Source: Lachnospiraceae bacterium (GTDB taxonomy: Bacteria; Bacillota; Clostridia; Lachnospirales; Lachnospiraceae). From it: a DNA stretch of 51,806 nt. The notes beneath the pieces are model-generated. The model saw only the letters and a program-made list of their open reading frames with translations, was not told the origin of the DNA and did no database searches. A program made the position numbers and the translations under genes. Where the stretch lies: NCBI GenBank assembly GCA_017622505.1, contig JAGAQZ010000026.1:1-51806 (forward strand), given 5' to 3'. Below are positions 6,522 through 46,193 of the stretch, in pieces (within the stretch, counting starts at the first letter, position 1; each line of letters opens with the position of its first letter).

Positions 6522-6662
6522 GCGGTGTGGATTTTATCGTTTTGTTCAAAGGGCGTTTGTACTCGCCGGTACTTGGATTGCGTCCTTTGCAATCCTACGT
6601 ACCGTTGCGTAGTACAAACGAGCGAAAGCGTCCCTAAGGACAAATGATAAAATCCACACCGC
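6522..6662. repeat. Structured palindromic element, copy A
   Basis: 17-bp perfect outer arms at 6522-6538 and 6646-6662 enclose nested hairpins. A weaker continuation pairs TTTGTTC with GGACAAA. An inner 9-bp stem pairs CGTTTGTAC with GTACAAACG. An apical hairpin pairs GGATTGC with GCAATCC, flanked by GGTAC/GTACC. A GCGAAAGC mini-hairpin with a GNRA loop lies on the 3' side (plus strand). The core words CGAGCGAAAGCG and CGGTACTT recur in the element at 46038-46193. It starts about 15 bases after the ackA stop, so it is probably part of the ackA 3' untranslated region. No open frame respects its boundaries. Confidence 0.7.
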
Positions 6663-6676
6663 GTCCTCTTTTTAAA

Positions 6677-7870
6677 TTAAACCAATTTTACGGTTTCTCT
6701 CGCAATTGCAAGTTCTTCGTTGGTAGGTACTACCATAACGGTTACCTTATCGCCGGGGTTAGAGATGATTGCTTCTTCACCACGAACTTTGTTCTTCTCG
6801 GGATCAACAGAGGTTCCGAGGTATTCAAAATATTCACCAACCATACCACGTACGCGAGCATCGTTTTCACCGATACCTGCTGTAAAAGCAATGATATCAA
6901 CGCCGTTCATAGCAGCTACATAAGAGCCGATGTATTTTGCTACTCTGTAGCAATAAGTTTCAAGAGCTGCTTTTGCAAGCAAATTGCCTTCGTCCATTGC
7001 CGCAGACAAATCACGGAAGTCGCTGGATACGCCGCCTGACAAACCGTAAACACCTGATTCCTTATTCAAAATCTTGGTAACTTCTTCCAAAGACTTTCCT
7101 AACTTCTTGCCAAGGAACTCTACGATTGCGGGGTCCATATCGCCGGAACGTGTTCCCATGATAAGACCTTCCAAAGGAGTAAGACCCATACTTGTGTCTA
7201 CACACTTGCCATGGTCAACAGCTGAAATACTTGCACCATTTCCTAAGTGGCAAACGATAATTTTAACATCTTCGCGCTTCTTGCCGAGGATTTCTGCAGC
7301 ACGGGCTGATACGAAATCATGGCTGGTTCCGTGGAATCCGTAACGACGTACTTTGTAATCTTCGTAATATTTATGAGGAAGTCCGTAAAGGTATGCTTTC
7401 TCAGGCATTGTCTGATGGAAAGCGGTATCGAATACACCTACCATAGGTACGTTAGGCATAATTTCTTTACAAGCATTGATACCGATTAAGTTAGCAGGAT
7501 TATGAAGAGGTGCAAGGTCGTTACATTCTTCAATTGCCTTCATAACTTCATCATCAATTACTACAGAGCTTGCAAACTTCTCGCCACCGTGTACGATTCT
7601 GTGACCTACAGCGTCGATTTCGTCCAAAGATTTTACAACACCGTGATTTGCATCTGTTAATGCATCAATTACCATCTGGATTGCTGTTGTATGTGTAGGC
7701 ATGGGATTCTCGATTGCTACCTTCTCACCGCCGGTAGGCTGATGCTTTAATACAGATCCGGGAGCACCGATTCTTTCGCAAAGACCCTTTGCAAGTACTG
7801 CCTCTGTGTCGCTGTTGATAAGCTGGTACTTCAATGATGAACTACCACAGTTAATAACCAATACGTTCAT
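6677..7870 (-). CDS. ackA: Acetate kinase
   Basis: 397 residues, full length for the family. [11 protein letters not shown] (7-17), the [11 protein letters not shown] segment (about 88-98), FDTAFH, CHLGNG and TAGIGEND are the acetate/sugar kinase superfamily signatures, including the substrate-binding Arg and the catalytic Asp/Arg set. It makes ATP from acetyl phosphate, or the reverse, in the cytosol during fermentation. The usual partner pta is not adjacent; the neighbours are proS upstream and a structured repeat downstream. An AAGGA site lies six bases before the ATG. Confidence 0.96.
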
Positions 7871-7958
7871 TTTTTCGTCCTTCTTTCTTTTTTATAAAAT
7901 AATTTTAAATTTAAATATTTTAACTCTGTACCGTTCTGATTTCACGCTAAAAATCATT

Positions 7959-9392
7959 TTAGTACGCCTTACCCCAATATACCATTTTTGAAGCAGGTTT
8001 GCCACAACAAATACACTTATCTGACAATTTTTCCTGTTCAAAAGGCATACAACGGCTGGTTGCCGCAGCGTCTTCTTTTACCTTATCTTCACAAGCTCTG
8101 TCGCCACACCACATAGCTTTCACGAAACCGGGCTTATTCTCTAAAATATCTAAGAACTCCGCATAATCCGTAGCGGTATAGGTATGTTCTTCGCGATGTG
8201 CGCGGGCTCTTTCAAGCATTTCAACCTGAATCTGATCAAGAAGTTCCGCTACCTTAACTTCTAACTCATCTAAATTAATTTCAATCTTCTCACCGGTATC
8301 TCTGCGGGCAAGTACAGCCTTATTTGCTTCGATGTCGCGGGGACCAATTTCAATACGTACGGGAATACCGCGCATTTCCTGCTCAGAGAACTTCCAACCG
8401 GGTGACTTGTCGGTATCATCTACTTTCACGCGGAAGCCTTTTAAGCGGTCTTTTAATTCATAAGCCTTGTCAAGTACGCCTTCCTTCTTCTGCTGGATAG
8501 GAATAATCGCAACCTGTACAGGTGCTACTCTGGGCGGTAAAACAAGACCTGAATTGTCGCCGTGTACCATGATGATGGCACCGATTAATCTGGTGGTCAT
8601 ACCCCAAGATGTCTGGTGTACGTATTCGAGTTTGTTTTCTTTTGATGTATACTGGATGCCGAATGCTTTCGCAAAACCGTCACCGAAGTTGTGGCTGGTA
8701 CCTGACTGCAACGCCTTACCGTCATGCATCAATGCTTCAATAGTGTAAGTTGCAATTGCGCCTGCGAATTTTTCTTTATCGGTCTTCTGACCTTTGACAA
8801 CAGGGATTGCTAAAACATTCTCAAGGAAGTCAGCGTATACATTTAGCATCTGAATGGTACGTGCTTCTGCTTCTTCTGCGGTTGCGTGTGCAGTATGACC
8901 CTCCTGCCATAAGAATTCACGGCTTCTTAAGAAAGGTCTTGTGGTCTTCTCCCAACGAACAACGCTGCACCACTGGTTATATACCTTAGGCAAATCACGG
9001 TATGAATGTACTTCGTTTGCATAGAAATCGCAGAACAAAGTCTCTGAGGTGGGACGTACGCACATTCTCTCCTGTAAGGGTTCCAAACCGCCGTGGGTTA
9101 CCCACGCAACTTCAGGTGCAAAGCCTTCTACATGATCCTTTTCTTTCTGTAAAAGACTCTCGGGAATGAACATCGGTAAGTATACATTCTCTACTCCCGT
9201 CTCCTTAAAACGCGCATCCAACTGACTCTGAATCAACTCCCAGATTGCATAACCTGCGGGCTTGATTACCATACAGCCTTTTACACTGGTGTAATCGATT
9301 AACTCTGCTTTCTTTACCACATCCGTATACCACTGGGCGAAATCCACGTCCATGGATGTGATGGCTTCCACTAATTTCTTGTCTTCTGCCAT
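7959..9392 (-). CDS. proS: Prolyl-tRNA synthetase (short, archaeal/eukaryote-like type)
   Basis: 477 residues, the size of the short class lacking the bacterial editing insertion. Class II signatures are seen: [11 protein letters not shown] (motif 2 region), [15 protein letters not shown] and the motif 3 region [17 protein letters not shown]. The C-terminal zinc-type domain has [18 protein letters not shown] and ends in the typical WGKAY. It charges tRNA-Pro in the cytosol. Transcription is preceded by a proline T-box (9702-9951), so it should rise when uncharged tRNA-Pro accumulates. The roughly 310-base stretch between the T-box and the start codon is unusually long and holds a large palindrome. 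GGAG lies just before the ATG. Confidence 0.95.
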
Positions 9393-9459
9393 GATTCTTC
9401 TCCTTTATTTTTTATATTATAAATTTGCTTTATTAAGTTTCTTTTTTCCTTGACTATCC

Positions 9460-9689
9460 GTTTCTGTACATCCTTATAAAATCCTGCGACCTTGCGGAGA
9501 ATATTAGTTTTTGAGTAATTTGTTTCATTCCCAGTGATTTTCCGACACAATGTCGGAAAAAGGTGCAATCGAGCCAGGACGGCGAGTTTGCACCGTTCAC
9601 GTCCACTTCTTTTCTAAAATATCCCACAAATTGCGTCCAAAAACTTATATTCGAAGAACGGAGCAGATTTTATAAGGATACGCAGAAAC
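9460..9689. repeat. Large palindromic element between T-box and proS
   Basis: Two 63-base arms (9460-9522 and 9627-9689) are imperfect inverted copies. They share blocks such as CAAATT, CAAAAACT, ATATTC, ATTTTATAAGGAT and CAGAAAC, with small gaps between. The centre holds two separate hairpins: TTTTCCGACA/TGTCGGAAAA with a 3-base loop (9538-9560), and GGTGCAA/TTGCACC enclosing a GC-rich loop (9562-9594). In the proS transcript this would fold into one long structure after the T-box terminator. It could be a MITE-like insertion or an extra regulatory element. Confidence 0.6.
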
Positions 9690-9701
9690 CATTTCCTGAA
9701 A

Positions 9702-9951
9702 ATAAAAAAGCTCTCCCGTCCCCAAGGGACCGAAAAGCTCGGCGATACCACCCTAATTAATGCTTACGCATTCACTCATCCTACCGTTAACGCCGGTGCT
9801 ACGCCTGTGATTAGCAGGAACTCCGAGGCGGGTTCGATACAAGGGGACGTCGGAATCTCACAGCCTGGCAGGACATTGAAACTCTCCTGTCGGATTCCTT
9901 CTCTGAAAACGTACTGATATCTACTATTCCTCATCAACGCTTTTACAATAT
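9702..9951 (-). promoter_or_regulatory. T-box riboswitch leader of proS (proline)
   Basis: On the minus strand the antiterminator sequence AGGGTGGTATCGCC (9741-9754) is a close match to the T-box consensus that pairs with the tRNA NCCA end. It is followed by a GC-rich terminator hairpin (9710-9740) and a T-rich run (9702-9709). Upstream are stem-I features: GAGGAATAGTA, CAGAGAAGG and a distal hairpin closed by GGAATC/GATTCC. GAA (9833-9835) then leads into CCC (9830-9832) or CCG (9829-9831); both possible specifier triplets encode proline, agreeing with proS downstream. Exact stem boundaries were judged by eye. Confidence 0.9.
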
Positions 9952-9957
9952 ATAACG

Positions 9958-9986
9958 ATTTTAGGCATAAAATCAGGTTTTGTCAA
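9958..9986 (-). promoter_or_regulatory. Promoter of the T-box-proS transcript
   Basis: Minus strand TTGACA (9981-9986), 17-bp spacer, TAAAAT (9958-9963). The predicted start near 9951 matches the 5' end of the T-box fold. TTTTAGGCA (9959-9967) and its inverted copy TGCCTAAAA (9987-9995) flank the promoter elements. Confidence 0.7.
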
Positions 9987-10074
9987 TGCCTAAAAAAGCC
10001 ATTTTACGCTTTTCCCTGTCTTTTTCTTATCCCCGCCTTATCTACTGCTCAACCAAACTATAATGTAAATAAAA

Positions 10075-10113
10075 TTTACACAGAATTTACATTCAAGTGA
10101 ACCAAACTTTACA
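10075..10113 (+). promoter_or_regulatory. PhoP-box-like array of four direct repeats
   Basis: TTTACA occurs at 10075, 10086 and 10108, with the degenerate GTGAAC at 10097, so four hexamers are spaced exactly 11 bp apart. Bacillus PhoP binds tandem TT(A/C/T)ACA-like hexamers with about 11-bp period. The array sits about 120 bases upstream of a Na/Pi cotransporter followed by an OmpR-type two-component pair. I infer a Pho-type control region. Confidence 0.65.
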
Positions 10114-10232
10114 TACCGGTTTTAAGATGGGATTGAAAAAGCTTTTTGCGTCTTTTTTCTTAATTTTTTTTGCATACATTAATAATATTTTTTAACCAAA
10201 AATAATATAAATATATTTTTACGGAGGATAAT

Positions 10233-12002
10233 ATGGATTTTTTTGACATTCTAACACTTATTGGCGGTTTGGCCATGTTTCTTTTTGGTATGCAGGTCCT
10301 TGGAGACGGACTGACACAAGCTTCCGGCGGACGTATGGAAAGCATCTTGGAGAAGCTGACTTCCAACCCTTTTAAGGGCGTTTTCTTAGGTATGCTGGTA
10401 ACCGCTGTAATTCAATCTTCTTCCGCCACCACTGTCATGGTTGTCGGTTTCGTAAATGCCGGCATTATGAAATTATCCCAGGCCGTAGGCGTTATTATGG
10501 GTGCAAACATCGGTACCACCATTACTTCCTGGATTTTGAGTTTGACCGGTATCGAAGGTGACAACTTCTTAATCCAAATGTTAAAACCTCAGAACTTCTC
10601 ACCTATCCTTGCTATCATCGGTATTTTCCTTGTTATGACAGCCAAAAAGGAAAGCAAGAAAAACCTTGGTAACATTCTTGTCGGTTTTGCAGTTTTAATG
10701 TTTGGTATGAACACGATGAGTGATACCGTAAAACCTCTGGCTGACGTTCCTGAATTCGCAGAATTTCTTCTGATGTTTGAAAACCCCTTCTTCGGCGTTT
10801 TTGCAGGTATGCTTTTAACTGCAATTATTCAAAGTTCATCTGCATCCGTGGGTATTTTGCAGGCTCTCTGTTCCACCGGTGCCGTAAGCTATGCCGTGGC
10901 AATTCCTATTATTATGGGACAGAATATCGGTACCTGTATCACGGCGCTTTTATCTTCCATCGGTGCAAGCAAGAATGCCCGCCGCGCTGCTTTGGTACAC
11001 TTGTATTTTAACTTGATCGGAACCTTAAGTTTCTTAATTCTTTTCTATATTTTGCATGCAGTGATAGACTTTGGTTTTATGGGTGTTGCAGCAAATGAAA
11101 TGGGTATCGCAGTGGTTCACTCCTGCTTTAATGTATTTGCAACCCTGCTTTTACTTCCTTTTTCTAAAATGCTTGAAAAGCTTGCTTGCCTTACTATCAA
11201 GGACAATGATGAAAAACCTGCAACCGCGGAAGAAAAAAGCTTCGCACTTTTGGACGAACGTTTCTTTGAAGCTCCCGGTCTTGCGGTAGAACAATGCCGC
11301 AACGCAGCATCCGACATGGCCGGCAAAGCCAAAGAAGCACTGATGCTGGCGCAAAGTCTCTTTGAACAATATGACGAAAACATTTTAAAAGAAGTAATGG
11401 AAGCAGAAGACCTTTTGGATCGCTACGAAGACGAATTAGGCAGCTACCTTGTAAAATTAAGCAGCCGCAGTCTTTCCGAAAAAGATAGCCACATGCTTTC
11501 AATTCTGTTACACTGTATAGGAGACTTGGAACGCATCGGCGATCACGCAGTAAACCTGGCGCACTCCGCGAAAGAAATGCATGATAAAAACTTACGTTTC
11601 TCAAGCAGTGCCGAAAATGAACTGGCCGTATTTGTTCGTGCGGTAAACGAAATTCTGGAAACCGCTGTTAACTCCTTCGAAGAACAGGACGAAACCGTTG
11701 CGCGCAGCGTAGAACCGCTGGAAGAAGTAATTGACCAGTTAAACGACGAAATGAAAGACAGACACATTATCCGACTTCGCCGTGGCGAATGTACCATTGA
11801 AATGGGCTTTATTCTTGCCGATGTAATGAACAATTACGAACGTATCTCGGATCACTGTTCCAACATCGCAATTTGTGCTATTCAGGAAAATACCGATGTG
11901 GAAGCTCACGATTATATCGTTAATTTAAAAACCAAAGACAGTGCCGCTTTCCTGGCGTCTGTAGAACAGTACAAGAAGAAATTTTATCTGCCCCGCATCT
12001 AG
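10233..12002 (+). CDS. Na+/phosphate cotransporter with C-terminal PhoU-like domain (NptA/YjbB type)
   Basis: 589 residues. Residues 1-320 are the membrane part with two inverted repeats, each carrying the signature QSSSA (61-65 and 200-204) and GxNIGT (ANIGTTIT near 91, QNIGTCIT about 230). Residues 350-570 are helical and PhoU-like, with ERIGDHAVNLA and YERISDHCSN repeats that in PhoU bind metal clusters. It should import inorganic phosphate with Na+ at the cell membrane, the PhoU part probably sensing or regulating. It is followed 48 bases later by a response regulator and histidine kinase, and preceded by a Pho-box-like array, which together suggest a phosphate-responsive unit. Confidence 0.9.
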   Translation: MDFFDILTLIGGLAMFLFGMQVLGDGLTQASGGRMESILEKLTSNPFKGVFLGMLVTAVIQSSSATTVMVVGFVNAGIMKLSQAVGVIMGANIGTTITSWILSLTGIEGDNFLIQMLKPQNFSPILAIIGIFLVMTAKKESKKNLGNILVGFAVLMFGMNTMSDTVKPLADVPEFAEFLLMFENPFFGVFAGMLLTAIIQSSSASVGILQALCSTGAVSYAVAIPIIMGQNIGTCITALLSSIGASKNARRAALVHLYFNLIGTLSFLILFYILHAVIDFGFMGVAANEMGIAVVHSCFNVFATLLLLPFSKMLEKLACLTIKDNDEKPATAEEKSFALLDERFFEAPGLAVEQCRNAASDMAGKAKEALMLAQSLFEQYDENILKEVMEAEDLLDRYEDELGSYLVKLSSRSLSEKDSHMLSILLHCIGDLERIGDHAVNLAHSAKEMHDKNLRFSSSAENELAVFVRAVNEILETAVNSFEEQDETVARSVEPLEEVIDQLNDEMKDRHIIRLRRGECTIEMGFILADVMNNYERISDHCSNIAICAIQENTDVEAHDYIVNLKTKDSAAFLASVEQYKKKFYLPRI

Positions 12003-12050
12003 TCGGGCATTGCATAATCCGCCTTTTATCAGGCAGAAAGGAAACATCCT

Positions 12051-12731
12051 ATGGCTTTAATATATATTGTTGAAGATGATAAAAACATTCTGGAAATAGA
12101 AAGCTTTGCCTTAAAAAACTCCGGTTACGACATACGTGGTTTTGCCACTGCCAAAGAATTTTATAAAGCCCTAAATGATTTTCTGCCGGACCTAATTCTT
12201 CTTGATATTATGCTACCCGACGAGGACGGTCTGAGCATATTAAAGAAACTTCGTTCCGACGTCAAAACCAAGTCGCTTCCCATTATTTTGGTTACCGCCA
12301 AAACAACGGAAATTGACAAGGTCAAGGGCCTGGATTCCGGCGCCGATGATTATATGACCAAACCCTTCGGCGTAATGGAACTCATATCCAGAGTCAAAGC
12401 TCTGTTGCGACGTGCACTGGCCGGTGCATCGGACGCATCCGTGTATGAATTTATGGAAATTGTAATGGACGTGGACAAGCGTTTAATTACCGTAAGCGGT
12501 GAAACTTGTGATTTGACCTACAAAGAATATGAACTCCTGAAATTGTTTATGGCAAATCCGGGCATCGTTATCAAACGTGAACGCATTTTAGAGAAGATTT
12601 GGGGTACGGATTTCGAAGGAGAATCCCGCACCATTGATATGCATATCAAGAATCTTCGTCAAAAATTAAAAACCGCCGGCAAATATATCAAAACAATTCG
12701 CAACGTAGGATATGTTTTAAACGGCGAATAA
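12051..12731 (+). CDS. OmpR/PhoB-family response regulator
   Basis: 226 residues. The receiver domain (1-120) has the acidic pair ED/D at 8-10, phosphoacceptor Asp52 in LILLDIMLPDEDG, Thr in VTAKT and Lys in YMTKPFG. The C-terminal winged helix (about 130-225) has YKEYELLKLFM, RERILEKIWG and RTIDMHIKNLRQKL. It binds DNA when phosphorylated by the kinase encoded next. The link with the preceding phosphate transporter and its Pho-box-like array suggests a PhoP-like role; this is inferred from context, as OmpR-family members look alike. GAAAGGAAA lies upstream of the ATG. Confidence 0.93.
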   Translation: MALIYIVEDDKNILEIESFALKNSGYDIRGFATAKEFYKALNDFLPDLILLDIMLPDEDGLSILKKLRSDVKTKSLPIILVTAKTTEIDKVKGLDSGADDYMTKPFGVMELISRVKALLRRALAGASDASVYEFMEIVMDVDKRLITVSGETCDLTYKEYELLKLFMANPGIVIKRERILEKIWGTDFEGESRTIDMHIKNLRQKLKTAGKYIKTIRNVGYVLNGE

Positions 12732-12763
12732 AATGAAAACTCTATAAAATAGGAGGATAACCT

Positions 12764-14095
12764 ATGAGAAAGAAAATAAACATACAATTGATTGGCATTG
12801 CCCTTCTGTCTATGTTGCTGACCATGGTTCTTCTCCTTTTTGTTTACTACGGAATCTTCCAAAAACAGGTATTGGACGAACTTAAAACCGTTGCCCATAT
12901 GATGGGAAGCATGGAAAACCTCACCGTATACAGCGTCAAAGATTATCAAACCAAATTAGACAACATACGAATTACACTGTTAGACACTGATGGCAGCGTA
13001 TTATATGACAGCGATGCAAATGCGGCAGAAATGGATAATCACGCCCTGCGTCCCGAAATTTCCGTGGCCTATTCAAACGGCGAAGCTTACGCAATCCGCG
13101 AATCCGATACCTTATCCCAAAACACTTACTATTATGCCATTCTTTTAGATAATGGTGGTGTTTTACGTGTTGCAAAGGAAGCTAACAGCATTTTAAGTAT
13201 CTTTGCCTCTTCCCTGCCCTCACTTTTGATTATTATTATTTCGCTTACCACAGTCTGCACCGTGGTAGCACGACTCTTTACCAAATCATTGATGAAACCC
13301 ATAGATAATATTGCCAAAGACCTTGACCATATGGGAGAGGTAAAGACCTACGACGAATTAAAACCCTTCATCGAGACCATCCAAAGCCAACATGAAGATA
13401 TTATCAAAAATGCCAAACTTCGCCAGGAGTTTACCGCCAATGTTTCCCACGAATTGAAAACGCCCTTAACCGTGATTTCCGGATATTCTGAATTAATTGA
13501 AAACGGTATGACCGGCGCAGAAGACACCATTCGTTTTTCAAAAGAAATTCATCGCAATTCCACAAGACTTTTAACATTAATTAACGATATATTAAGACTT
13601 TCCGAACTAGACTCCGGCGAACAGAATACACCTATGGAAGACATAGATTTGTATGAATTATCCGACAACTGCATTTCTATGTTGCAGATGAATGCCGAAA
13701 AAAATAATGTCATCTTAGATTTAAAAGGTCCTCACCTAACTGTATTTGCCAATCGTCAAATGCTGGAAGAAATGATTTATAATTTGTGCGATAACGGAAT
13801 TCGCTACAACAAACCGAATGGCAAAGTAGAGGTATCAATCAGGGAAAATAATGAGAATGTTATTTTTATGGTAAGCGACACAGGTATTGGCATTTCGAAA
13901 GAAAATATTAATCGGATTTTTGAACGATTTTATCGCGTGGACAAAAGCCGTTCCAAGCAGACCGGCGGTACCGGTTTAGGCCTCGCAATTGTAAAACACA
14001 TCGCCGAACAAATGAATGCACAAATTCAAATTGATAGTGAATTAGAAAAAGGGACTACTATTACCATATTATTTCCCAAGAAGGTTCCTTCGTAA
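12764..14095 (+). CDS. Membrane sensor histidine kinase (PhoR/ResE-like)
   Basis: 443 residues. Transmembrane helices near 8-28 and 146-168 bracket an extracytoplasmic sensor of about 115 residues. A cytoplasmic linker follows, then HisKA with FTANVSHELKTPLTVISGY (phosphorylated His near 231). The HATPase domain has the N box NLCDNGIRYNKPNG, G1 DTGIGIS, the F box RFYRVDKSRS and G2 GGTGLGLAIVKHI. It forms a two-component pair with the response regulator 32 bases upstream, preceded by AGGAGG. No PAS domain is obvious, so it is closer to the short PhoR type. The signal is unknown; phosphate limitation is suggested by the neighbouring transporter. Confidence 0.92.
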   Translation: MRKKINIQLIGIALLSMLLTMVLLLFVYYGIFQKQVLDELKTVAHMMGSMENLTVYSVKDYQTKLDNIRITLLDTDGSVLYDSDANAAEMDNHALRPEISVAYSNGEAYAIRESDTLSQNTYYYAILLDNGGVLRVAKEANSILSIFASSLPSLLIIIISLTTVCTVVARLFTKSLMKPIDNIAKDLDHMGEVKTYDELKPFIETIQSQHEDIIKNAKLRQEFTANVSHELKTPLTVISGYSELIENGMTGAEDTIRFSKEIHRNSTRLLTLINDILRLSELDSGEQNTPMEDIDLYELSDNCISMLQMNAEKNNVILDLKGPHLTVFANRQMLEEMIYNLCDNGIRYNKPNGKVEVSIRENNENVIFMVSDTGIGISKENINRIFERFYRVDKSRSKQTGGTGLGLAIVKHIAEQMNAQIQIDSELEKGTTITILFPKKVPS

Positions 14096-14122
14096 ATCAC
14101 AAATATTTCTAAATAATAAAAA

Positions 14123-14150: not shown

Positions 14151-14168
14151 TTGATGATTTCACTTTAA

Positions 14169-16632: not shown

Positions 16633-16647
16633 AATTACATGATAAAA

Positions 16648-30827: not shown

Positions 30828-31036
30828 CCGCATGTATCTTATCAATTGACACCGCTACACGTTACCCGAACAGTTAGCTGGGCCCAGGTTGCCTCACGGC
30901 ACCCGGAAGGTTCCTCTTAGTGCTGCTTTGTTCCCAACCTGACACGGTTCGTGGATTTCCGTCGCGCGAGACCCGAGCTTAAGCGCCACTTATCCGGGGC
31001 AGCTGTAACGATGCCGATTCATAAGATACATACGGC
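30828..31036 (-). ncRNA. ffs: Signal recognition particle RNA
   Basis: The minus strand carries the SRP domain core: GTCAGGTTGGGAACAAAGCA, GCAGCACTAAG and GGGTGCCGTGAGGCAACCTGG-like pairs around the tetraloop side (near 30875-30945). The ends pair over about 15 bp (CCGTATGTATCTTAT with ATAAGATACATGCGG), closing helix 5, and a T-run (30822-30827) ends the gene. About 209 bases is shorter than the roughly 265-base Bacillus RNA but longer than 4.5S RNA; the sequence near 30960-31010 (CCGGATAAGTGGCGCTTAAG) may be a small Alu-type end. Its position after tadA is the classic Firmicutes location. Confidence 0.93.
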
Positions 31037-31042
31037 ATACCT

Positions 31043-31071
31043 AGTATACTCATTTTTTAAAATATTGTCAA
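31043..31071 (-). promoter_or_regulatory. Promoter of the SRP RNA gene
   Basis: Minus strand TTGACA (31066-31071), 17-bp spacer, TATACT (31043-31048). The expected transcript start (31036) coincides with the 5' end of the closing helix. Confidence 0.85.
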
Positions 31072-31101
31072 TGTAAGAATGCGGTGCTTTTGTCTTATGG
31101 A

Positions 31102-37596: not shown

Positions 37597-37610
37597 TCTG
37601 CCTCCGACTT

Positions 37611-38702
37611 TTAGTCGCCCATCTGTTCATCCAAATACTTGGTGTAATTCACTACCATCAAAGCAATCTTTAACGTAAGCGCATCATCAAAGGTACGGAT
37701 ATCCAAACCGGTAGCTTCGCGCAAACGCTCAATACGATACACTAACGTATTTCGATGCACATACATCTGACGGGCAGTTTCTGACACGTTTAAGTTATTA
37801 TTGTAAAACTTATTCACGGTCATCAACATTTCATCATCCAATTCTTTAGGAATATCATCCCCAAAAATCTCCTGAATAAACATACGGCACAAATTCACCG
37901 GTAACTGATAAATCAAACGACCGATACCAAGGGCATCATACGCAATGATATCTCTCTGTTCATAGAAAATCTGACCAACGTCGAGACCCATTTTCGCCTC
38001 TTTATAAGATTTAGAAATTTCACGCAATTCTTTAACAACCGTACCGTAGGATACGCGGGATTTTACCAGCACTTCTTCCTGCATAAGTCCGAGAAGTACC
38101 CTTGCAATCTGGTCCATATCCTCATACTTTTCATCATTCTCCAAAGTATGCACGAGAATCACGTTCTTCTCATCCACGGCAGTCACGTAATCATCCATCT
38201 TCTCTGCAAAAGCGGAGCGGATAATTTCCTGGGCCTCGCGACTTTTATCCTCGGGCACTTCCGTAAGAAATACCACACGGCGGGCCTGAGCCGGAATCCC
38301 TAGTTTCTTGGCGCGGTTATAGATATCCACCAACAGCAGATTATCCAGAAGGAGATTTTGCATAAAATTAGTCTGGTCGTATTGCTCTCTGTACGCTACC
38401 AAAAGATGCTGTAACTCATTTACTGCAATTTTACCGAAAATATATCCGTCCGACTGGCTTCCCCGGGAAATCAAAACATACACGACTTCGCCGTCTTCTT
38501 TTACCTTAAACAAGTAGTTTCCGCCGATAATCTGACTGTCTGCCGGCGAGTCAAAGAAACTCTTCATATGGCTGATGTCCAAGCTGTCCTTGTTAAAAGT
38601 GCTGGCCATCATCACACCCTGCACGTCAATTACGCAGAAATCCACTTTCGTCAAATCTTTTAATTCATCAATACATGTCTGAATGACCTGTTTTGTAATC
38701 AT
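37611..38702 (-). CDS. CdaR/PucR-type transcriptional regulator
   Basis: 363 residues. The N-terminal sugar-diacid-like sensor (about 1-130; ITKQVIQTCIDELKDLTKVDFCVID at 2-26) is CdaR-like. A central GGDEF-like fold (about 140-290) follows, then the PucR/CdaR C-terminal helix-turn-helix (about 300-360) with NVSETARQMYVHRNTLVYRIERL. It is 48 bases downstream of the GH13 amylase gene and 14 bases upstream of the TlpA-like gene, so it may govern either. The ligand is unknown. Confidence 0.85.
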   Translation of the reverse strand: MITKQVIQTCIDELKDLTKVDFCVIDVQGVMMASTFNKDSLDISHMKSFFDSPADSQIIGGNYLFKVKEDGEVVYVLISRGSQSDGYIFGKIAVNELQHLLVAYREQYDQTNFMQNLLLDNLLLVDIYNRAKKLGIPAQARRVVFLTEVPEDKSREAQEIIRSAFAEKMDDYVTAVDEKNVILVHTLENDEKYEDMDQIARVLLGLMQEEVLVKSRVSYGTVVKELREISKSYKEAKMGLDVGQIFYEQRDIIAYDALGIGRLIYQLPVNLCRMFIQEIFGDDIPKELDDEMLMTVNKFYNNNLNVSETARQMYVHRNTLVYRIERLREATGLDIRTFDDALTLKIALMVVNYTKYLDEQMGD

Positions 38703-38749
38703 TCTTTTAACCCCCGATTTCTAGCTTATTTTATCATAAGCTTCGTTCC

Positions 38750-41092
38750 CTAAAAGAACGGGAATCGTTTCTTTTTGTCATCGCCCTTTTTCTCTTCCGG
38801 CACGATTTCTTCCTGTTTGCCGTAGATGTTGGAAGCTACTTCCCAGGCATCCGGCGCAGAATCAGTTTGTGCAACATTTTCGCCTTCTACTACAACACCA
38901 TCTGCCATAATTTCACCATTCTCAGCATTCTGTACTGCCCCTGTATTCTCAGCCTCATTTTCAGTATTCTGTTTCTTTGCCTTGGTTCTGGGATTCACAG
39001 CCTTAAGCACGATAACCGAAGTAGGCGGAAGGGTTACTTTGACTCTTCCGTCAATAACATCATATTCAAATTCGTTTGTGGTATAACCGTCTGCATACGT
39101 AAAAATCAAACGTTGCATTTTATATTCCTTCGGAACACCGGCTTCCCACACGCTGACTTCTTTGGTAATTTCGTTGTAGTTGTTGTTCACCAGTACAACA
39201 ATCTGCTCCCCGGCCTGAATACGGGCATACGCAATATAGTTGTAGTCAGCACCCAAGTTCATCAAGGAACCTGTAAGGATTTCCTGATGGGCCTTGTGCA
39301 CCTTAATCATATCTCTGTGGAAGTTAATCAAATCCTGGTCTTCATTGCCCCAAGGATAAGTTCTGCGGTTGTCGGGATCCGTAAAACCGCATACACCTGC
39401 TTCATCACCATAGTAAATGGTGGGCGCACCGGGCCAGGTCATCTGTACCGCTACCGCCTCGCGAAGCACTGCCTTATTCACGCCTTCATTGGCTGCCTGG
39501 CATCCCAAGGTATGCATACGGCCAACCTTATGATTGGTTCTTGTCAAAAATCTTGAATGGTCGTGGTTACTCAACTCATTCATGGAAATCTGTAATGACG
39601 GCGTTGTAAAATTGGTTCCGTGATGAGCCATAGCACCCCAGAAACTGTCCGCATTACCCAGTAAATCTTCACGATAGTCATCACTATGCTTCTGCATACC
39701 GGTCAAAAACCATGTCAAAGGCTCCATAAAAGCATCATAGTTCATAACCGTATCCCATTCCTTGCCGTTCAGCCACGCTCTGGGCGAGCCATAATGCTCG
39801 GCAAGCACGATTGCATTGGGATTTGCCTTACGCACTTCCTTGCGGAAATCCGCCCAGAATTTATGATTGAATTCCGGCGAATGCCCTAAATCTGCTGCCA
39901 CGTCCAAACGCCATCCATCGGCATTGTAAGGCGCAGACACCCACTTACGTCCGATGTGGAGAATATAATCATACAACTCCTGGGACGCTTCATAATTCAA
40001 TTTCGGCAGAGTATCATGTCCCCACCATCCGTCATAGGTATTGTTATAAGGCCAGGGACCGCTTTCGTTGTGGAAACGGAAGTAATCATGGTACACACTT
40101 CCTCTGTCCACATAGGCACCCTTCTCATAACCCTTCTGATTCTCGTAAATACGTTCCTTATCCAGCCACTTGTTAAAAGAACCGCAGTGGTTGAATACAC
40201 CGTCAAGAATAACCTTCATACCGCGCTTATGCGCTTCCGCAACCACTTCGGCAAACAAGGCATTACTTGCTTCGAGATTCTTCTTATTGGCTACACGGTT
40301 AATATATTTAGTGGCCATATGATTCTCACGCTGGCCTTCTTGTAATAATTCACCCTCATCCTCTACAATTTTACCGATATGGGGATCGATATAGTCATAG
40401 TCCTGAATGTCATACTTATGGTTGGAAGGCGATACAAAAAGCGGGTTAAAATAAATAACGTCAATGCCCAGGCTTTCCAGATAATCCATTTTATCCAAAA
40501 CACCCTGCAAGTCACCGCCGTAGAACTCACGGACACCCATCTGCGCAGGATACTTATTCCAGTCTTCCACCTTCTGGGAATAGTCACCAAGATACATATA
40601 TTCCCTGGTTTCTACGTCATTGGTGGGGTCACCGTTATAGAAACGGTCTACGTAAATCTGGTACATAACCGCGCCCTTCGCCCAATCCGGTGTAGAGAAT
40701 CCGGGAATAATGCGGAAGTTATAGTACTCCTGCAAATCGCGGGTTACACCGCGCATATTATAAAAGCAGCAAAGCTTTCCTACTTTAATCTCAAAGTAGT
40801 ACTGAATTTCTTCTTCACCGGCTTTTATCAGACATTCATAATAGTCAAACTGCTCATCCTGCGCAACCTTCTCCATATCGTAGCTGTCCTCACGAATGAC
40901 AAGGTTTACCGCATCTATATTATTACGCCCGGAACGGAAACGAATCGTCACCATATCGCCCACCTTAGGCTCTACGGGTGAAACGTAGTCTGCAGTGGTA
41001 TCGGAAAAGAGAGCCCTCTTGTTTAAAAGGGGACGCATTGTCGAAATATAATTGCAGATTTTTTCCAGTTCAAAACAATGATTTATATTCAT
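38750..41092 (-). CDS. GH13 alpha-amylase/neopullulanase-type enzyme
   Basis: 780 residues from the chosen ATG; GAGG nine bases upstream. N-terminal CBM34-like beta domain (about 35-140), the GH13 barrel with IYFNPLFVSPSNHKYD, GWRLDVAAD (nucleophile Asp), VLAEHYG (acid/base Glu) and LSNHDHSR (transition-state Asp), then a C-terminal beta domain. No signal peptide is seen, so it is probably cytosolic, acting on maltodextrins. Beyond the catalytic part a low-complexity tail of about 70 residues, rich in Glu, Asn, Gly and Ala and ending in DDKKKRFPFF, is unusual for this family. Confidence 0.9.
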   Translation of the reverse strand: MNINHCFELEKICNYISTMRPLLNKRALFSDTTADYVSPVEPKVGDMVTIRFRSGRNNIDAVNLVIREDSYDMEKVAQDEQFDYYECLIKAGEEEIQYYFEIKVGKLCCFYNMRGVTRDLQEYYNFRIIPGFSTPDWAKGAVMYQIYVDRFYNGDPTNDVETREYMYLGDYSQKVEDWNKYPAQMGVREFYGGDLQGVLDKMDYLESLGIDVIYFNPLFVSPSNHKYDIQDYDYIDPHIGKIVEDEGELLQEGQRENHMATKYINRVANKKNLEASNALFAEVVAEAHKRGMKVILDGVFNHCGSFNKWLDKERIYENQKGYEKGAYVDRGSVYHDYFRFHNESGPWPYNNTYDGWWGHDTLPKLNYEASQELYDYILHIGRKWVSAPYNADGWRLDVAADLGHSPEFNHKFWADFRKEVRKANPNAIVLAEHYGSPRAWLNGKEWDTVMNYDAFMEPLTWFLTGMQKHSDDYREDLLGNADSFWGAMAHHGTNFTTPSLQISMNELSNHDHSRFLTRTNHKVGRMHTLGCQAANEGVNKAVLREAVAVQMTWPGAPTIYYGDEAGVCGFTDPDNRRTYPWGNEDQDLINFHRDMIKVHKAHQEILTGSLMNLGADYNYIAYARIQAGEQIVVLVNNNYNEITKEVSVWEAGVPKEYKMQRLIFTYADGYTTNEFEYDVIDGRVKVTLPPTSVIVLKAVNPRTKAKKQNTENEAENTGAVQNAENGEIMADGVVVEGENVAQTDSAPDAWEVASNIYGKQEEIVPEEKKGDDKKKRFPFF

Positions 41093-41525
41093 TACAAAAT
41101 ACCTCACTTTACCCTTTATTTTATTATATTTCAAGGGGGTGCGCAAGTGTTTCTTGTACATCAAAGGACACTGTTTGACAATTTTTTTCAGCCGGAAAAA
41201 TTTCCCAAAATTAAACTATAAGTTCATAGATGAATTTGAACCATTATGCTACATTATACTCACCCCCAAAAATTAAGATGAGGACCGGCCGTTCTCATTT
41301 TTTTATCCCCTGCATACATAAAATGCTTTTGTGGGCGAATTTTGTCAATTACTTGTCGATTTTTGATAAATTTCGTTTGAAAGTCCGTTTTATTGTATAG
41401 CAAATAGGCTATCCTATGTTCAGCACTTAGGATAAAATTGTAACCCGGTTTCATAAACACCCGGTGCCACCCCGCTTGTTTGGAAACCACAACCAAAAAA
41501 CAGCGTAAAAGAAGGGAGAATGCAT
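41093..41525. other. Intergenic region between the amylase and the small XRE gene
   Basis: 433 bases. On the minus strand a TATAAT near 41122-41127 lies 30 bases upstream of the amylase start. On the plus strand there is a 7-bp dyad (TATCCTA/TAGGATA, 41410-41434), then two direct copies of ACCCGGT. These could be operator sites for the XRE protein. I see nothing coding. Confidence 0.4.
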
Positions 41526-41819
41526 ATGTTAGCAACAGATTGTAGAATTAGTATTGATCCGGTAAAAACCGGCCAGAACATGAAAACATTTCGTAAAAGA
41601 AAAGGTTTATCCGTTAAGGACGTAACCAAAGCCCTCGGTCTTCAGGCACCACAGTCAGTCTACAAGTGGGAAAGAGGCGATTGTCTTCCCCGCATTGACA
41701 ACTTTTTTGCCTTATGCTGCCTCTATGAAGTAGCTCCCACCGACCTTTGTTCGTTCTATGACAAGGAACATGCTGATTATTTCCGCAACTTTTTTCTTGT
41801 CACCATGAAGGCATCTTAA
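41526..41819 (+). CDS. Small XRE-family transcriptional regulator
   Basis: 97 residues from the second in-frame ATG, which is seven bases from GGGAG; the first ATG is too close to that site. The helix-turn-helix covers about 15-70: VKTGQNMKTFRKRKGLSVKD and VYKWERGDCLPRIDNFFALC. The C-terminus has no further domain. XRE repressors of this size control neighbours or themselves; direct repeats upstream are candidate sites. Shared terminator with the ABC permease gene. Confidence 0.85.
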   Translation: MLATDCRISIDPVKTGQNMKTFRKRKGLSVKDVTKALGLQAPQSVYKWERGDCLPRIDNFFALCCLYEVAPTDLCSFYDKEHADYFRNFFLVTMKAS

Positions 41820-41858
41820 AATTGTAATTTGCCCTCCATCATAATAGATCTCCTTTGT

Positions 41859-41901
41859 AAAAAGACATTGCCGTTGCCACAAGCTTCGACAATGTCTTTT
41901 T
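41859..41901. terminator. Bidirectional terminator
   Basis: A perfect 12-bp stem (AAAAAGACATTG and its complement) with a 19-base loop and T-runs on both sides lies between the XRE gene and the ABC permease gene. Confidence 0.85.
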
Positions 41902-41904
41902 AAC

Positions 41905-44433
41905 TTATTCTCTATTCTTCAATACCTCTGCCGGAGATATTTTCTTTAACTTCGCCACAAGCACTGTATTTACAATAAAATATACCACCATAATTCCTGC
42001 GAAAATCCCCACATAAAAGCCCGGTGAAAATGTCAGATTAATCCCGCATGACGTGTTCGCGATAAAAGAAGGGAACACATAATTCATAATGCATTTGGCC
42101 GACGGAATGCTGATTAAAGCGCCCACCGCCACAATGATTGCATTGCCATTTAAATAAAGCTTTCTTATTTCACCGGTGCGGAATCCGAAAATCTTTACCA
42201 GTGAAATGCCCATAGATGCACGGTCCACCATTACATTCAGCATCAGGTACATAACCGCAAAGAAAACAACAACCGAAACCGAAATCAACATAGTTACCAT
42301 CGGTCGCATCATCTTCGAGAATACGGAAGAAGAACGCTCAATGTCTGCTTTAGTGGTTACGGAATAAACTCTTCCGTCTTCAATATCCAGCTCTTCATCG
42401 GATAAAAGCATATTGTAATAATCTTCGTCTGCGTCAAATAACTCACGCATACTGTCAATATCCATAAAAACGGTAAGGCCTACGGAATACTCTGCAATCC
42501 CTTTTACGGTGAATGCATAGTACATATCATTGGCACTGTCCGTTAGAATCAGTTTATCACCAACGGATAAGTTATATTTCTGCGCTACGGAAGAACTTAC
42601 AATTATGTTGCTTTTCCCTTTTACGGGTTCTGCGTCATAGTACTTGTTATCATTGTCGATACCGATGACACTGACGTCTAAAGTATAACCCAAATTTGTC
42701 TTGGACAGACTTTCCATATAACAGGCTTCCGCATCTTCAGGCACTTCCTCTTCCGGATATTTTAAGGAATACATATACTCAAACTTCGTATCTTCCACGC
42801 TTTCTATTCTTACGTTTTCACACAATACGTAACAATTCAGACCCATCATCAGTATCAGTAAAGTGATGAACATGCCCAGCACAACAGTAATGCCGGTTCT
42901 TGCTTCCCGAAGCATCTGACGAATCTGAAAACGACGAAGAAATCCAAGTTTCCCCAAGTTAATGTTGTTTCGATAGCTGATTTTCTGCTCGTTTTTAATG
43001 AGGGATAACGCCGTACGCGATAATCTTTTATTGATTACGATATAGTTGACAATTACCGAAATCACCGGTGGCATAACCACACCGTAGACAATCAGCCAGG
43101 GTGCATAGGCCGGCTCTAAATCAGGCACCGAGAAATACAAATAGGTATCCCGCATCTGATGGGGAATCCCCAAATCACTGAAGCCCAGAACCGTACCTGT
43201 CAGCCCGCCGACAAAAGAAATAATTGTCGGTAATAAAATATAATGGCTCACCAAAGTATGCTTCTTGGCACCCAAAGCATACAGCGTCCCAATTACACTA
43301 CTCTCCTGCTGGATTTGATGAATTACAAACACCGAAATCACGTAGGTAAAAAGAATCATAATTACAACGCCGGCTAGTAATCCGATATTGTGATTGGTCT
43401 GCAAATCTCCGGCAGCCGCATGAATTCTTCCGTTATCTTCTGCTTTGATAAAAGAAGTAAGATTATCCAAATCTATGATCAGATATTCATCCAACAATTC
43501 ATCGGTTTCATCCTGCAATTCCTGTACACCATCCGAAAGTTCCGTAGTACCGTCAGATAAATCCTTCACGCCATCATACAATTCACCCTGCATAATACCC
43601 ATAGTCTCCAGCGCATCCACCACATCTTTGGCGCCACTTTCCACATATTCGGCACCATCCGACAATTCCTCAATGCCCTCTCGGATATCATCTTTACGTC
43701 CGATGGTGTCTTCAATCATTTCTTGAAAATAGACATCATCCACCTGTTCATAATCGAATTCAAACGATTTAATTTCTTCTTTTAATTCATCATGAGTCAT
43801 GGCACCATTCAAACGGTAGGCGTAGCAATACTCCTCAATCCCCGCTTCGCCGGATGCAAGAATCTCTTCATAAGCTTCTTCCGTCACAAAAGCAAGACCA
43901 AACAGACTGCTTTCCACTGCCATATCAGAGAATTTGGCAATGGGCATATCATACTCCGGCACACAGCCGATACCTGTGATGGTATAAGTTTTACCGGCCA
44001 ATTCAACCGTATCACCCACCGCCAATGCATGTTCGGCAGCATATCGTTTCTCCAAAACCACCTCATCTTTGGTTTCGGCAAGACGTCCATCATCCACATA
44101 AACAAAATTAATTTCCTCACGATTGGCAAAAACGCGAAGCGTCGATTCATCTTCCTGTATTAAATCCACCGAAAACATTCTCTCAAGGGTTACGCCCTTA
44201 TCACGAATTTCCTCTTCCTGTCCCGCTGTCAATGGTATAAAAACACCGAACTGCCCGTCTTCAACCTTGTTTTCTTCTGCCCTAAGCTCCGTTCCCGTGA
44301 TTATGGTGTTCGCTGCGCCCACAATGGCGATTACAATGTACATCCCCAGCACAATCAGCAGAAACAAAGCCAGATAACGCAGAAAATTGCTTTTTAAATC
44401 CCTGAGAATTCTTTTATTTAAAACTTTGTTCAT
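41905..44433 (-). CDS. FtsX/MacB-type ABC transporter permease with extracytoplasmic coiled coil
   Basis: 842 residues with the layout of two FtsX domains: one helix near 16-36, a large external region, then three helices (about 345-465), a second external region, and three more (about 710-835). In the first external region, residues 250-320 form LSDG-containing heptads (GIEELSDGAEYVESGAKDVV and ELSDGVQELQDETDELLD) resembling YhgE/Pip proteins. Its ATG overlaps the ATPase gene stop by one base (TAATG-type), so the two form one complex. The cargo may be a peptide, drug or lipid; it is unknown. Confidence 0.9.
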   Translation of the reverse strand: MNKVLNKRILRDLKSNFLRYLALFLLIVLGMYIVIAIVGAANTIITGTELRAEENKVEDGQFGVFIPLTAGQEEEIRDKGVTLERMFSVDLIQEDESTLRVFANREEINFVYVDDGRLAETKDEVVLEKRYAAEHALAVGDTVELAGKTYTITGIGCVPEYDMPIAKFSDMAVESSLFGLAFVTEEAYEEILASGEAGIEEYCYAYRLNGAMTHDELKEEIKSFEFDYEQVDDVYFQEMIEDTIGRKDDIREGIEELSDGAEYVESGAKDVVDALETMGIMQGELYDGVKDLSDGTTELSDGVQELQDETDELLDEYLIIDLDNLTSFIKAEDNGRIHAAAGDLQTNHNIGLLAGVVIMILFTYVISVFVIHQIQQESSVIGTLYALGAKKHTLVSHYILLPTIISFVGGLTGTVLGFSDLGIPHQMRDTYLYFSVPDLEPAYAPWLIVYGVVMPPVISVIVNYIVINKRLSRTALSLIKNEQKISYRNNINLGKLGFLRRFQIRQMLREARTGITVVLGMFITLLILMMGLNCYVLCENVRIESVEDTKFEYMYSLKYPEEEVPEDAEACYMESLSKTNLGYTLDVSVIGIDNDNKYYDAEPVKGKSNIIVSSSVAQKYNLSVGDKLILTDSANDMYYAFTVKGIAEYSVGLTVFMDIDSMRELFDADEDYYNMLLSDEELDIEDGRVYSVTTKADIERSSSVFSKMMRPMVTMLISVSVVVFFAVMYLMLNVMVDRASMGISLVKIFGFRTGEIRKLYLNGNAIIVAVGALISIPSAKCIMNYVFPSFIANTSCGINLTFSPGFYVGIFAGIMVVYFIVNTVLVAKLKKISPAEVLKNRE

Positions 44434-45134
44434 TATAAATCCTCCAATTCAGCCGCCGGCACGCGGGTTTCATTTTCATAATCCTTCTTAACCAGACCGT
44501 CTTTTATGATGATGACTTTATGTACCATATTTTTGATGGAATTGTTGTGGGTTACAATCAACATTGTGGTGCCGTATTTTTCATTGATTTTTTCCAACAA
44601 AATCAATATGTCCCTTGATGTCTTGGAATCCAGCGCGCCTGTAGGTTCATCACAAAGTAAAAGCTTCGGATTCTTGACCAACGCCCTGGCAATGGCACAA
44701 CGCTGTTGCTGACCACCGGAAAGCTGGGAAGGAAATTTATTCTGATGCTCCGTCAAGCCGAGTGTATCCAGCAATTCATCGATGTCCAAAGGATCCTCGG
44801 AAATATATTCGCAGACCTGGATATTCTCACGGACGGTGAGATTAGGCACCAAATTGTAAAACTGAAAAATGAAGCCCAGATTATCTCGACGATAATCCGA
44901 TAGTGCCTTGCCTTTTAAACCGAAAACTTCCTTTCCGTCCACTTTAACAGAACCGGAATCCATAGTATCCAATCCGCCGATGCAGTTTAAAAGAGTTGAC
45001 TTACCGCTGCCGCTGGTGCCCTGGATAACACACATCTGTCCTTGCTCTACACCGGTGGTCACACCTTTTAAAACCTGAATATAGCTGGAATCCTTACCGT
45101 AACTTTTCTTCACATCCTTGATTTCTAAATACAT
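44433..45134 (-). CDS. ABC transporter ATP-binding protein (MacB/LolD type)
   Basis: 233 residues. Walker A GTSGSGKST (about 39-47), Q-loop in FQFYNLVPNLTVREN, signature LSGGQQQR, Walker B LLLCDEPTGALDSK and the switch His in VTHN. The DEPTGALDS and LxIVTHN segments are typical of the MacB/LolD family. It powers the permease encoded next. The upstream region holds TetR-type operators (45187-45203, 45251-45275), so it is probably under control of the TetR protein. Confidence 0.93.
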   Translation of the reverse strand: MYLEIKDVKKSYGKDSSYIQVLKGVTTGVEQGQMCVIQGTSGSGKSTLLNCIGGLDTMDSGSVKVDGKEVFGLKGKALSDYRRDNLGFIFQFYNLVPNLTVRENIQVCEYISEDPLDIDELLDTLGLTEHQNKFPSQLSGGQQQRCAIARALVKNPKLLLCDEPTGALDSKTSRDILILLEKINEKYGTTMLIVTHNNSIKNMVHKVIIIKDGLVKKDYENETRVPAAELEDL

Positions 45135-45186
45135 ATTTGCCGCCTTATTGGTGAATATATTTCAATTTAATATTTGCTGCTTTGTA

Positions 45187-45203
45187 ACATAACATTGTTA
45201 TGT
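45187..45203. promoter_or_regulatory. TetR operator upstream of the ABC genes (site 1)
   Basis: Palindrome ACATAACA-T-TGTTATGT, centred about 60 bases before the ATPase start. A further half-site GTGTTATGTTAT follows at 45208-45217. The ATAACA/TGTTAT half-site is shared with the sites at 45251 and 45921. Confidence 0.6.
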
Positions 45204-45250
45204 GAGTGTTATGTTATAAGGAGTCCCGGAAGACTCCCTTCAAATAACCA

Positions 45251-45275
45251 CATAACATAACACTGTTATGTTATG
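45251..45275. promoter_or_regulatory. TetR operator upstream of the ABC genes (site 2)
   Basis: Perfect 12-bp arms (CATAACATAACA and its complement) with a single base between, in the gap between tetR and the ABC ATPase gene, 28 bases beyond the tetR stop. Confidence 0.65.
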
Positions 45276-45302
45276 TTTAAAAAGTAAACCGCTATTTCGC
45301 GG

Positions 45303-45908
45303 CTACTTATCTATTACGGCTGTCCAGCCCTTTGTTATAAAATTCATTACTTTCTTAATATGCGCAAGTGCTTTCTTCTCATCTTTCTCGTGGGTAATCA
45401 TATGAATAAACGCATCTAAAATCATATGCGTCAACCAGTGGACCATAGCCTTGTTTACTTTTCCGCCGTAATGAGAACCCATTTTCGCAGACATCTTTGT
45501 ATATGTCTCATCCAAAATATCTGCCAAATCATCCACTGCATTCTCATACTTAGACCCCTGTGCCTTGGTAAGAAGCATATGGAAGACATCGTAGTTCTGA
45601 TACAAATGATGCACCAGTTCTTCTACGAATGCGTCGTGATCGCCTTCCTCTGCATCATAGGGCTGCTCCATCAATGCTTCATCCTCTTCAAAGTGGCTCT
45701 TAAGAATTGCAATCAATTCATTATAAGGTCCGTCAGCAATTGCTCCAAACAAAGCCTCCTTATCCTCAAAGAAGAAATACAACGCACCGGTGGTCACTCC
45801 CGCGTCCGCACAAATTTTACGAAGAGAAGCCTTATTATATCCCTTCTCCATAAACTCCCTGCGGGCACTGTCTATTAACTTTTCTCTGGTTTCTTTATCT
45901 GCACCCAT
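45303..45908 (-). CDS. TetR-family transcriptional regulator
   Basis: 201 residues. The N-terminal TetR DNA-binding domain (about 8-55) has REKLIDSARREFMEKGYNKA and SLRKICADAGVTTGALYFFFEDKEALF. The C-terminal ligand pocket is helical and specific to this protein. It lies just upstream of the ABC pair and has a palindrome over its own promoter; sites with the same half-sequence precede the ABC genes. It therefore probably represses itself and the transporter. The ligand may be a transported compound. AAGGTG precedes the ATG. Confidence 0.92.
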   Translation of the reverse strand: MGADKETREKLIDSARREFMEKGYNKASLRKICADAGVTTGALYFFFEDKEALFGAIADGPYNELIAILKSHFEEDEALMEQPYDAEEGDHDAFVEELVHHLYQNYDVFHMLLTKAQGSKYENAVDDLADILDETYTKMSAKMGSHYGGKVNKAMVHWLTHMILDAFIHMITHEKDEKKALAHIKKVMNFITKGWTAVIDK

Positions 45909-45920
45909 TCATTTCACCTT

Positions 45921-45975
45921 AGATAACAATGTTACGTAACGCTGTTATCTTAATATGTTTTAGAAAATCTGTCAA
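45921..45975 (-). promoter_or_regulatory. tetR promoter with overlapping operator
   Basis: Minus strand TTGACA (45970-45975), 17-bp spacer, TAAGAT (45947-45952). A 30-bp palindrome (45921-45950; arms AGATAACA and TGTTATCT around a GTTACGTAAC centre) overlaps the -10 element and the start site. This is the standard arrangement for autorepression. Confidence 0.75.
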
Positions 45976-46037
45976 CACCTTTTTTATGAATTGAATTTTT
46001 ATATGCAATTAAAATGCGCCCGGGAGCTTTTCTTTGT

Positions 46038-46193
46038 ATGCTGTGCAGATATTTTTATTCCATAAAGAACCGTGTGAAAGCGTCGGTACTTAACGAACAA
46101 ACGAATTGTATTCGTTTGGTGAGTTTAGTATCCGCTACGGTTTCACTCGAGCGAGAGCGCGTTCTGTTGGAATATAAAATATCTGCACAGCAT
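46038..46193. repeat. Structured palindromic element, copy B
   Basis: Outer arms of 24-25 bases (46038-46061 and 46169-46193) pair almost perfectly; GCCCGG at 46018 and CCGGGC at 46213 may extend them. Inside: AGAAC/GTTCT, GTGAAA/TTTCAC, CGGTACT with AGTATCCG, and an apical CAAACGAA/TTCGTTTG hairpin. A GCGAGAGC mini-hairpin with a GNRA loop is on the 3' side. The plan and core words (CGAGCGARAGCG, CGGTACTT) match the element at 6522-6662. It lies beyond the ftsH terminators. An apparent short reading frame over it is not credible. Confidence 0.7.

Follow-up and report, generated by a model that had tools for sequence, protein, structure and literature searches.

A dispersed family of palindromic elements in Lachnospiraceae with a core that appears to be selected as RNA

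Several kinds of short dispersed sequence are known from bacterial genomes, among them the bcr1, ERIC, BOX and NEMIS repeats, which are 100–150 nt long, intergenic, foldable and restricted to particular groups, with ends common to their copies, and the EAR RNA, an RNA element of long polysaccharide operons. Repetitive extragenic palindromes (REPs) are described as sequences of 20–40 bp that are tagged at one end with GTAG or CGTC, and the phyla listed there for the CGTC repeats are five, Firmicutes not among them (PMC3733652). A set of 250 palindromic candidate RNAs has been reported from human microbiomes (PMC8040213), and the dfn hairpin of LoaP, which is of the UNCG type, is described from long operons (PMC12691694). 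Here we describe further dispersed elements, two of which lie in a window of 51,806 nucleotides, the whole stretch of DNA analysed (contig JAGAQZ010000026.1 of the Lachnospiraceae bacterium assembly GCA_017622505.1). Comparison across genomes shows a family, a common fold, a strand bias in the core, an apparent multiplication in genomes G316 and G342 and the swap of a core at a fixed site. Our best explanation, held with some reserve, is an old family of non-autonomous dispersed Lachnospiraceae elements, each with an RNA-folding core inside palindromic arms and moved in trans.

Element 1 (F1 type) lies 3′ of ackA and spans 6522..6662 from arm to arm on the plus strand, which is the strand of the GNRA loop and antisense to ackA; orthologous copies are found at ackA in genomes G019 and G027. 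Its 5′ outer arm (6522..6547) pairs in the fold with its 3′ outer arm (6638..6662), and the arms of the three orthologues differ yet pair. Between them, the core (6550..6635) carries the helices P2 and P3, a bulged P4, an apical hairpin and a side hairpin at a three-way junction, the last of these (P6, 6622..6629) being read in the sequence as GC-GAAA-GC with its GNRA loop at 6624–6627. Element 2 (F2 type), also on the plus strand, spans 46040..46191, with outer arms at 46040..46061 and 46169..46191, and a P6 at 46151..46158 that reads GC-GAGA-GC, again with a GNRA loop. The RNA fold of 6522–6662 reaches −80.2 kcal/mol (z −12.7), the z-scores of the cores are −6.1 (6550–6635) and −3.8 (46060–46170), and no shuffled sequence matched the native fold in any of six folds. 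The two elements of a preliminary description of this DNA are thus both present and fold better than shuffles, with the span of the second, given there as 46038–46193, now corrected by its arms. That description also placed both just beyond the 3′ ends of genes, which is right for element 1, ending 14 bases beyond the ackA stop codon, but not for element 2, which lies about 330 bases beyond the ftsH stop with a separate conserved transcript-like sequence in between.

A covariance model, R1, was built from 31 copies, all of the element-2 type, with element 2 included and element 1 not. It matches 46059..46176 on the plus strand with 114.8 bits (E 3.9e-30), a copy that belongs to the alignment from which the model was made, and since it also recovers element 1 (6542..6648, plus strand, 55.5 bits, E 8.5e-13), the two belong to one family. 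RNAalifold gives the same structural plan for both types, and the nearly identical core words remarked on in the preliminary description reflect, on this evidence, common descent.

As a test, that description had named copies in related genomes together with covariation, and such copies proved plentiful. As a query against its own genome, element 1 finds 11 places at other sites, one of merely 32 bases, and element 2, for which 27 of 36 candidates were scored, finds 27 matches, a count that takes in its own place and matches on the reverse strand. R1 finds 55 places in the same genome (E<=0.01), 42 in G005 and 36 in G027, and matches 27 of the 31 genomes of the genus. In an order-wide sample, 27 of 295 genomes match at 1e-4, all of them Lachnospiraceae; this survey scored no more than 12 candidates for each genome, under stricter filters, so that its copy counts are lower bounds. 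A pattern scan of a named genome collection gave at least 118 stretches, with the isolates Pseudobutyrivibrio sp. OR37, Lachnospiraceae bacterium AC2028 and Falcatimonas sp. MSJ-15 among the carriers. Among the titles of 80 of these, 54 read “Lachnospiraceae bacterium”, nine carry genus names that we take to be Lachnospiraceae, 16 are broader (Clostridiales, Eubacteriales, Eubacteriaceae, Clostridia, Firmicutes, bacterium), and one, Bacteroides, is taken as a label error, the label being unchecked. Plasmids and phages searched with the G316 unit gave no match, and viral contigs gave one pattern match. The covariance-model search across loci covered 99 source stretches; a second, covering 100 of the 118 pattern-scan stretches, gave 123 matches, and the context analysis omitted two of these, which contig ends had truncated.

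Covariation across the copies is strong. In an alignment of 127 copies, itself fitted to the covariance model, 95.5% of paired cells are standard pairs, and cells changed on both sides number 1130 against 289 in shuffles, confirming the earlier observation that loops are conserved while stems change and still pair. Changes on both sides occur in 32 of 35 pairs (28.6 in shuffles), the covariation score is 0.697 against 0.200 when shuffled, and slid structures pair in just 28–45% of cells. Two MAFFT alignments agree: compensated pairs number 22 of 35 in one and 23 of 36 in the other. Alignment A1 holds 22 of 23 copies, L018 being omitted as a near-duplicate, and alignment A2 holds 31 of 40 extracted rows, 11 rows (9 copies) having been removed by a motif filter and restored in A3. 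The loop of the two-pair hairpin P6 is of the GNRA type in 124 of the 127 copies (GAGA 63, GAAA 37, GCGA 9, GCAA 6, GGGA 5, GGAA 4, three others), and a two-base bulge in P4 and, in the element-2 type, tandem G·A by the apical stem are fixed among the unpaired features. At ackA, the copy is 82–91% alike in three species, compared with 35–46% for the left, far intergenic flank in the same alignment and 73–86% for the near side, which is mostly ackA coding sequence; this suggests that the element there is under constraint.

A DNA palindrome alone would make G·T as common as A·C among the mismatches of paired columns, and an excess of G·U can therefore be read as selection at the RNA level. Counting all core pairs, mismatches are 121 G·U to 27 A·C, and with the three plus-strand-only pairs omitted, which makes the count strand-neutral, 87 to 20, a roughly fourfold excess. 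The bias holds when one copy is taken per genome (averages of 44.5 and 5.7 over 51 genomes) and for the 40 copies from 26 genomes outside the genus (24 and 7). The outer arms of 116 copies show no asymmetry (95 and 104). The core thus seems to be selected as an RNA of the GNRA strand, and the arms may be read as palindromes without a preferred strand, acting either at the DNA level or by forming hairpins in RNA from both strands.

The arms also behave differently from the cores. Arms pair within their own copy with a median score of 12.5, against 6.0 with the arm of another copy, and in 80 of 125 copies own-arm pairing lies above the 99th percentile of shuffled pairs. Several cores are at least 95% identical yet have different outer arms, and by eye the pairs L194, L195 and L237 have cores alike within the pair and arms that are not. 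A core swap shows most clearly at one site common to genomes G000 and G005, where the 40 bases to each side are identical, core identity is 83%, and another G000 copy resembles the G005 core at 93%. Ten sites common to these genomes were compared, and at 7 of them another G000 copy is nearer to the G005 core than is the orthologue, with a margin of at least 0.1 at 4 of the 7; this comparison takes the best of many G000 copies and so favours such results somewhat. Ectopic gene conversion, or re-insertion of cores into existing sites, would produce such a swap. Copies within 600 bases of each other are mostly arranged head to head, with 5′ ends facing, as in 15 of 17 pairs of an unselected set (two in line, none tail to tail) and in 9 of 10 pairs of another locus set, for which some loci were fetched because paired; L237 500–887 is an example. 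At L126 (1420–1900) a head-to-head pair lies inside a further long inverted repeat beginning GGGGACAGTCCC, a start that fits the GGGGWSAS terminal repeats described for Y1 elements (PMC3733652).

The clearest sign of movement comes from one lineage. At E<=0.001 the model gives 44 matches in genome G316 (two contigs), of which a few are partial, and BLAST finds 16 full units of at least 88% identity at different sites. In seven more units (L399–L405), outside the list of 44, the 3′ strand of P3 is lengthened by an insertion of about 110 nt that forms three to four hairpins; three of the seven share one flank with another (L399/L400, L400/L404) and the other flanks differ. The unit ends near AGGGGCTGTAAAAAATCAAAATAAT and its inverse, with terminal inverted repeats of about 25 bp, and in G316 the arms travel with it. 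These terminal repeats are common to copies of the G316/G342 subfamily, whereas elsewhere the outer arms of copies are unlike one another. Copy-specific arms might also be palindromes older than the insertion, or inverted copies of the target. G342 has at least 21 places of 84% identity or more. From near-identical units at different sites we infer recent multiplication in this lineage. Direct repeats of at least 5 bases, as a target-site duplication would leave, flank 2 of 33 rows (0.7 in shuffles, p 0.15), and inverted repeats beyond the G316 ends flank 4 of 33 rows (5.1 in shuffles), the rows coming from 22 G316/G342 copies, 11 of them counted on both strands. One G342 locus (L430, C2:117700-118700) holds an apparent remnant, both arms without a core, where G316 has a complete element of another type.

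Under the explanation that we favour, each copy has a core of about 100 nt that folds as an RNA of one strand, with a three-way junction, a bulged P4, a variable apical hairpin and a GNRA side hairpin, between long palindromic arms that change quickly while their pairing is kept. An enzyme acting in trans would move the unit, and the folded core RNA would be needed for the unit to multiply or to be tolerated. Resident copies would be untranslated hairpins between or after genes, with a part in processing or stability, rather than terminators in general. Several observations weigh against this explanation. Counted by columns, the excess is smaller, with G·U in 25 column pairs and A·C in 19, and the strand-neutral excess is weak in the two small MAFFT alignments (11:4 and 12:6). 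No clean empty site was found, the best site pairs being diverged or holding other genes, and the matches (E<=0.001) from G316 and 15 congeneric genomes include no lone G316 terminal repeat, as would mark a parent transposon. Neither candidate enzyme follows copy number, Y1 transposase being found in 8 of 15 multi-copy genomes and 11 of 20 no-match genomes of the 295-genome survey, and reverse transcriptase (RVT_1) in 8 of 15 and 12 of 20. Finally, at least 10 copies compared between genomes G000 and G005 occupy shared, older sites, so that just one lineage shows recent mobility.

It is possible, if doubtful, that the element is instead a cis-regulatory RNA of operons, acting in read-through, processing or antitermination like the EAR RNA or the LoaP hairpin, and that high-copy genomes hold many derived copies. 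The strand-specific pairing bias of the core would suit such a role, as would the orientation of tandem copies in genomes with three copies or fewer (10 sense and 3 antisense, compared with 21 and 46 elsewhere; Fisher p 0.004, in the 127-copy set only). Of 12 low-copy loci scanned, five adjoin sugar-nucleotide or glycosyl-transferase genes, and in six wider low-copy regions, chosen after the neighbours were known, gene runs are mostly one-way and 10 of 68 proteins are glycosyl transferases of group 1. A place in polysaccharide operons may thus be an older role, with sites that are few and related: the five loci come from two genera and by look from about three independent sites, and one of the six regions, in G266, is a fatty-acid cluster and not a polysaccharide one. 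Over the family as a whole the tandem copies are mostly antisense, since 204 classed copies divide into 85 tandem antisense, 58 tandem sense, 36 convergent and 25 divergent (17 of 127 and 27 of 121 copies being left unclassed), and the 27 classed in G316 into 10, 8, 8 and 1. Orientation and place are thus mixed, and a general position just after genes is not supported. Pfam scans of 99 of the 113 proteins neighbouring sense copies and 92 of the 164 neighbouring antisense copies found no family in more than 5 of the former or 3 of the latter, and no NusG/LoaP domain was found among 10 small proteins or in 25 of the 86 families listed for operon regions. As a separate observation, a Clostridiales-1 RNA (RF01699) lies at L446 4876–5042, in G246, within a polysaccharide gene run that also holds an element.

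We consider it unlikely, but worth stating, that the family is an RNA-based mobile element of a new class, in which the folded core RNA would direct multiplication and would also let fixed sites exchange their cores; the palindromic arms would belong to the site and be remade or kept by DNA-level repair, with a partner enzyme that is neither Y1 nor reverse transcriptase.

Somewhat less probable again is a REP-like DNA palindrome moved by a single-strand Y1/HUH transposase, with the RNA-like appearance a by-product of the folding of single-stranded DNA. The lack of strand asymmetry in the arms and of target duplication would fit, as would the Y1 genes of G316 (four) and G342 (two) and the head-to-head pairs, an arrangement described for REP dimers (PMC3733652), but the G·U excess and the GNRA loop of the core speak against it. 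No Y1 match was found in 7 of the 15 multi-copy genomes, including four with a completeness rating of 100% (G064, G077, G109, G178), no RVT_1 match in 7 of the 15, including G027, G109, G178 and G322 at 97–100% completeness, and neither in five (G005, G019, G027, G109, G178). We reject both enzymes as general movers, their presence not following copy number. Both are present in G316 and G342, the lineage with recent copies, and either may have a role there. The preliminary description had offered a dispersed structured RNA or a transposase-dependent palindrome; dispersal, apparent RNA-level selection on the core and inferred recent multiplication bear out parts of both, and dependence on a transposase is not supported, none having been found.

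That the elements are bidirectional intrinsic terminators grown large is very improbable. In the direction of ackA a T-run follows the copy at that gene, several relatives have an ordinary short hairpin 3′ of ackA, and young G316 units sit between A- and T-rich flanks. However, with arms traced over 45 bases only, T-rich stretches lie beside the arms in 13 and 15 of 198 copies compared with 15 and 25 at control positions, and a conserved core is not needed for termination, so termination as a general function was rejected on the T-content. Chance resemblance between palindromes, for which nothing speaks, is refuted by the one model for both elements, by 27 matching genomes of 295 that all belong to one family and by covariation over 127 copies.

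Searches for known families bear out the earlier view that no named one fits. Rfam 15 at the gathering threshold places no family on either element and gives only two matches in the window, a TwoAYGGAY RNA (RF01731, 9492–9659, plus strand, 98.3 bits) and a large bacterial signal recognition particle (SRP) RNA (30828–31084, minus strand, 117.1 bits); a scan of both element loci at E<=5 gave five weak matches, none on the elements. Neither the window nor six operon regions gave an Rfam match to the EAR RNA, and literature searches found, among their best-ranked results, no publication on such an element. The strongly conserved sequence between ftsH and element 2 (46236–46345, minus strand) likewise had no match in the Rfam scan of the window. 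It has a promoter-like start, then GTAACCCCCC...CTATACCCCATAAG...CCTTCTCTAAAAAGGACAG and a hairpin with a T-run, is present in 17 of 20 ftsH loci compared (20 of 30 loci), and is probably an unnamed small RNA.

With these sequences, a main bacterial family of the mammalian gut gains a structured element that has no name and can reach dozens of copies in a genome. It joins two layers in one element, pairing of the core as a one-strand RNA and arms kept as palindromes without strand preference. It resembles the bcr1, ERIC, BOX and NEMIS repeats in size and foldability and is set apart from them, as they are generally described, by arms that mostly differ between copies. Prokaryotic miniature inverted-repeat transposable elements (MITEs) such as QMITE2 are described as likewise short, non-coding, intergenic and multi-copy, with stable hairpin transcripts (PMC10969869), and the G316 unit shares with MITEs its terminal inverted repeats. 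Unlike MITEs, the family shows no duplication of its target, no parent transposon with matching ends was found, its ends are not common to lineages, and its core is under RNA-like covariation. With REPs and CGTC-REPs it shares dispersed palindromes and head-to-head pairs, and CGTC-REPs are also described as lacking a dedicated transposase (PMC3733652), so that the family offers a way to test how a short non-coding element can multiply when no transposase is visible, a question also for CGTC-REPs. However, at 140–320 nt with a three-way junction it exceeds the 20–40 bp described for REPs, its CGTC lies inside the core rather than forming an end tag, and a RAYT (Y1) match, a mark that defines GTAG-REPs only, is absent from the same seven multi-copy genomes. 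It differs from the LoaP hairpin as described in its GNRA side loop and in the lack of LoaP among scanned proteins. One of the 250 palindromic candidates of PMC8040213 may be the element. The family behaves most like a MITE or a REP, yet lacks tested features of both, and its unusual traits are two: the core is RNA-like and strand-specific, and it does not behave as the arms do.

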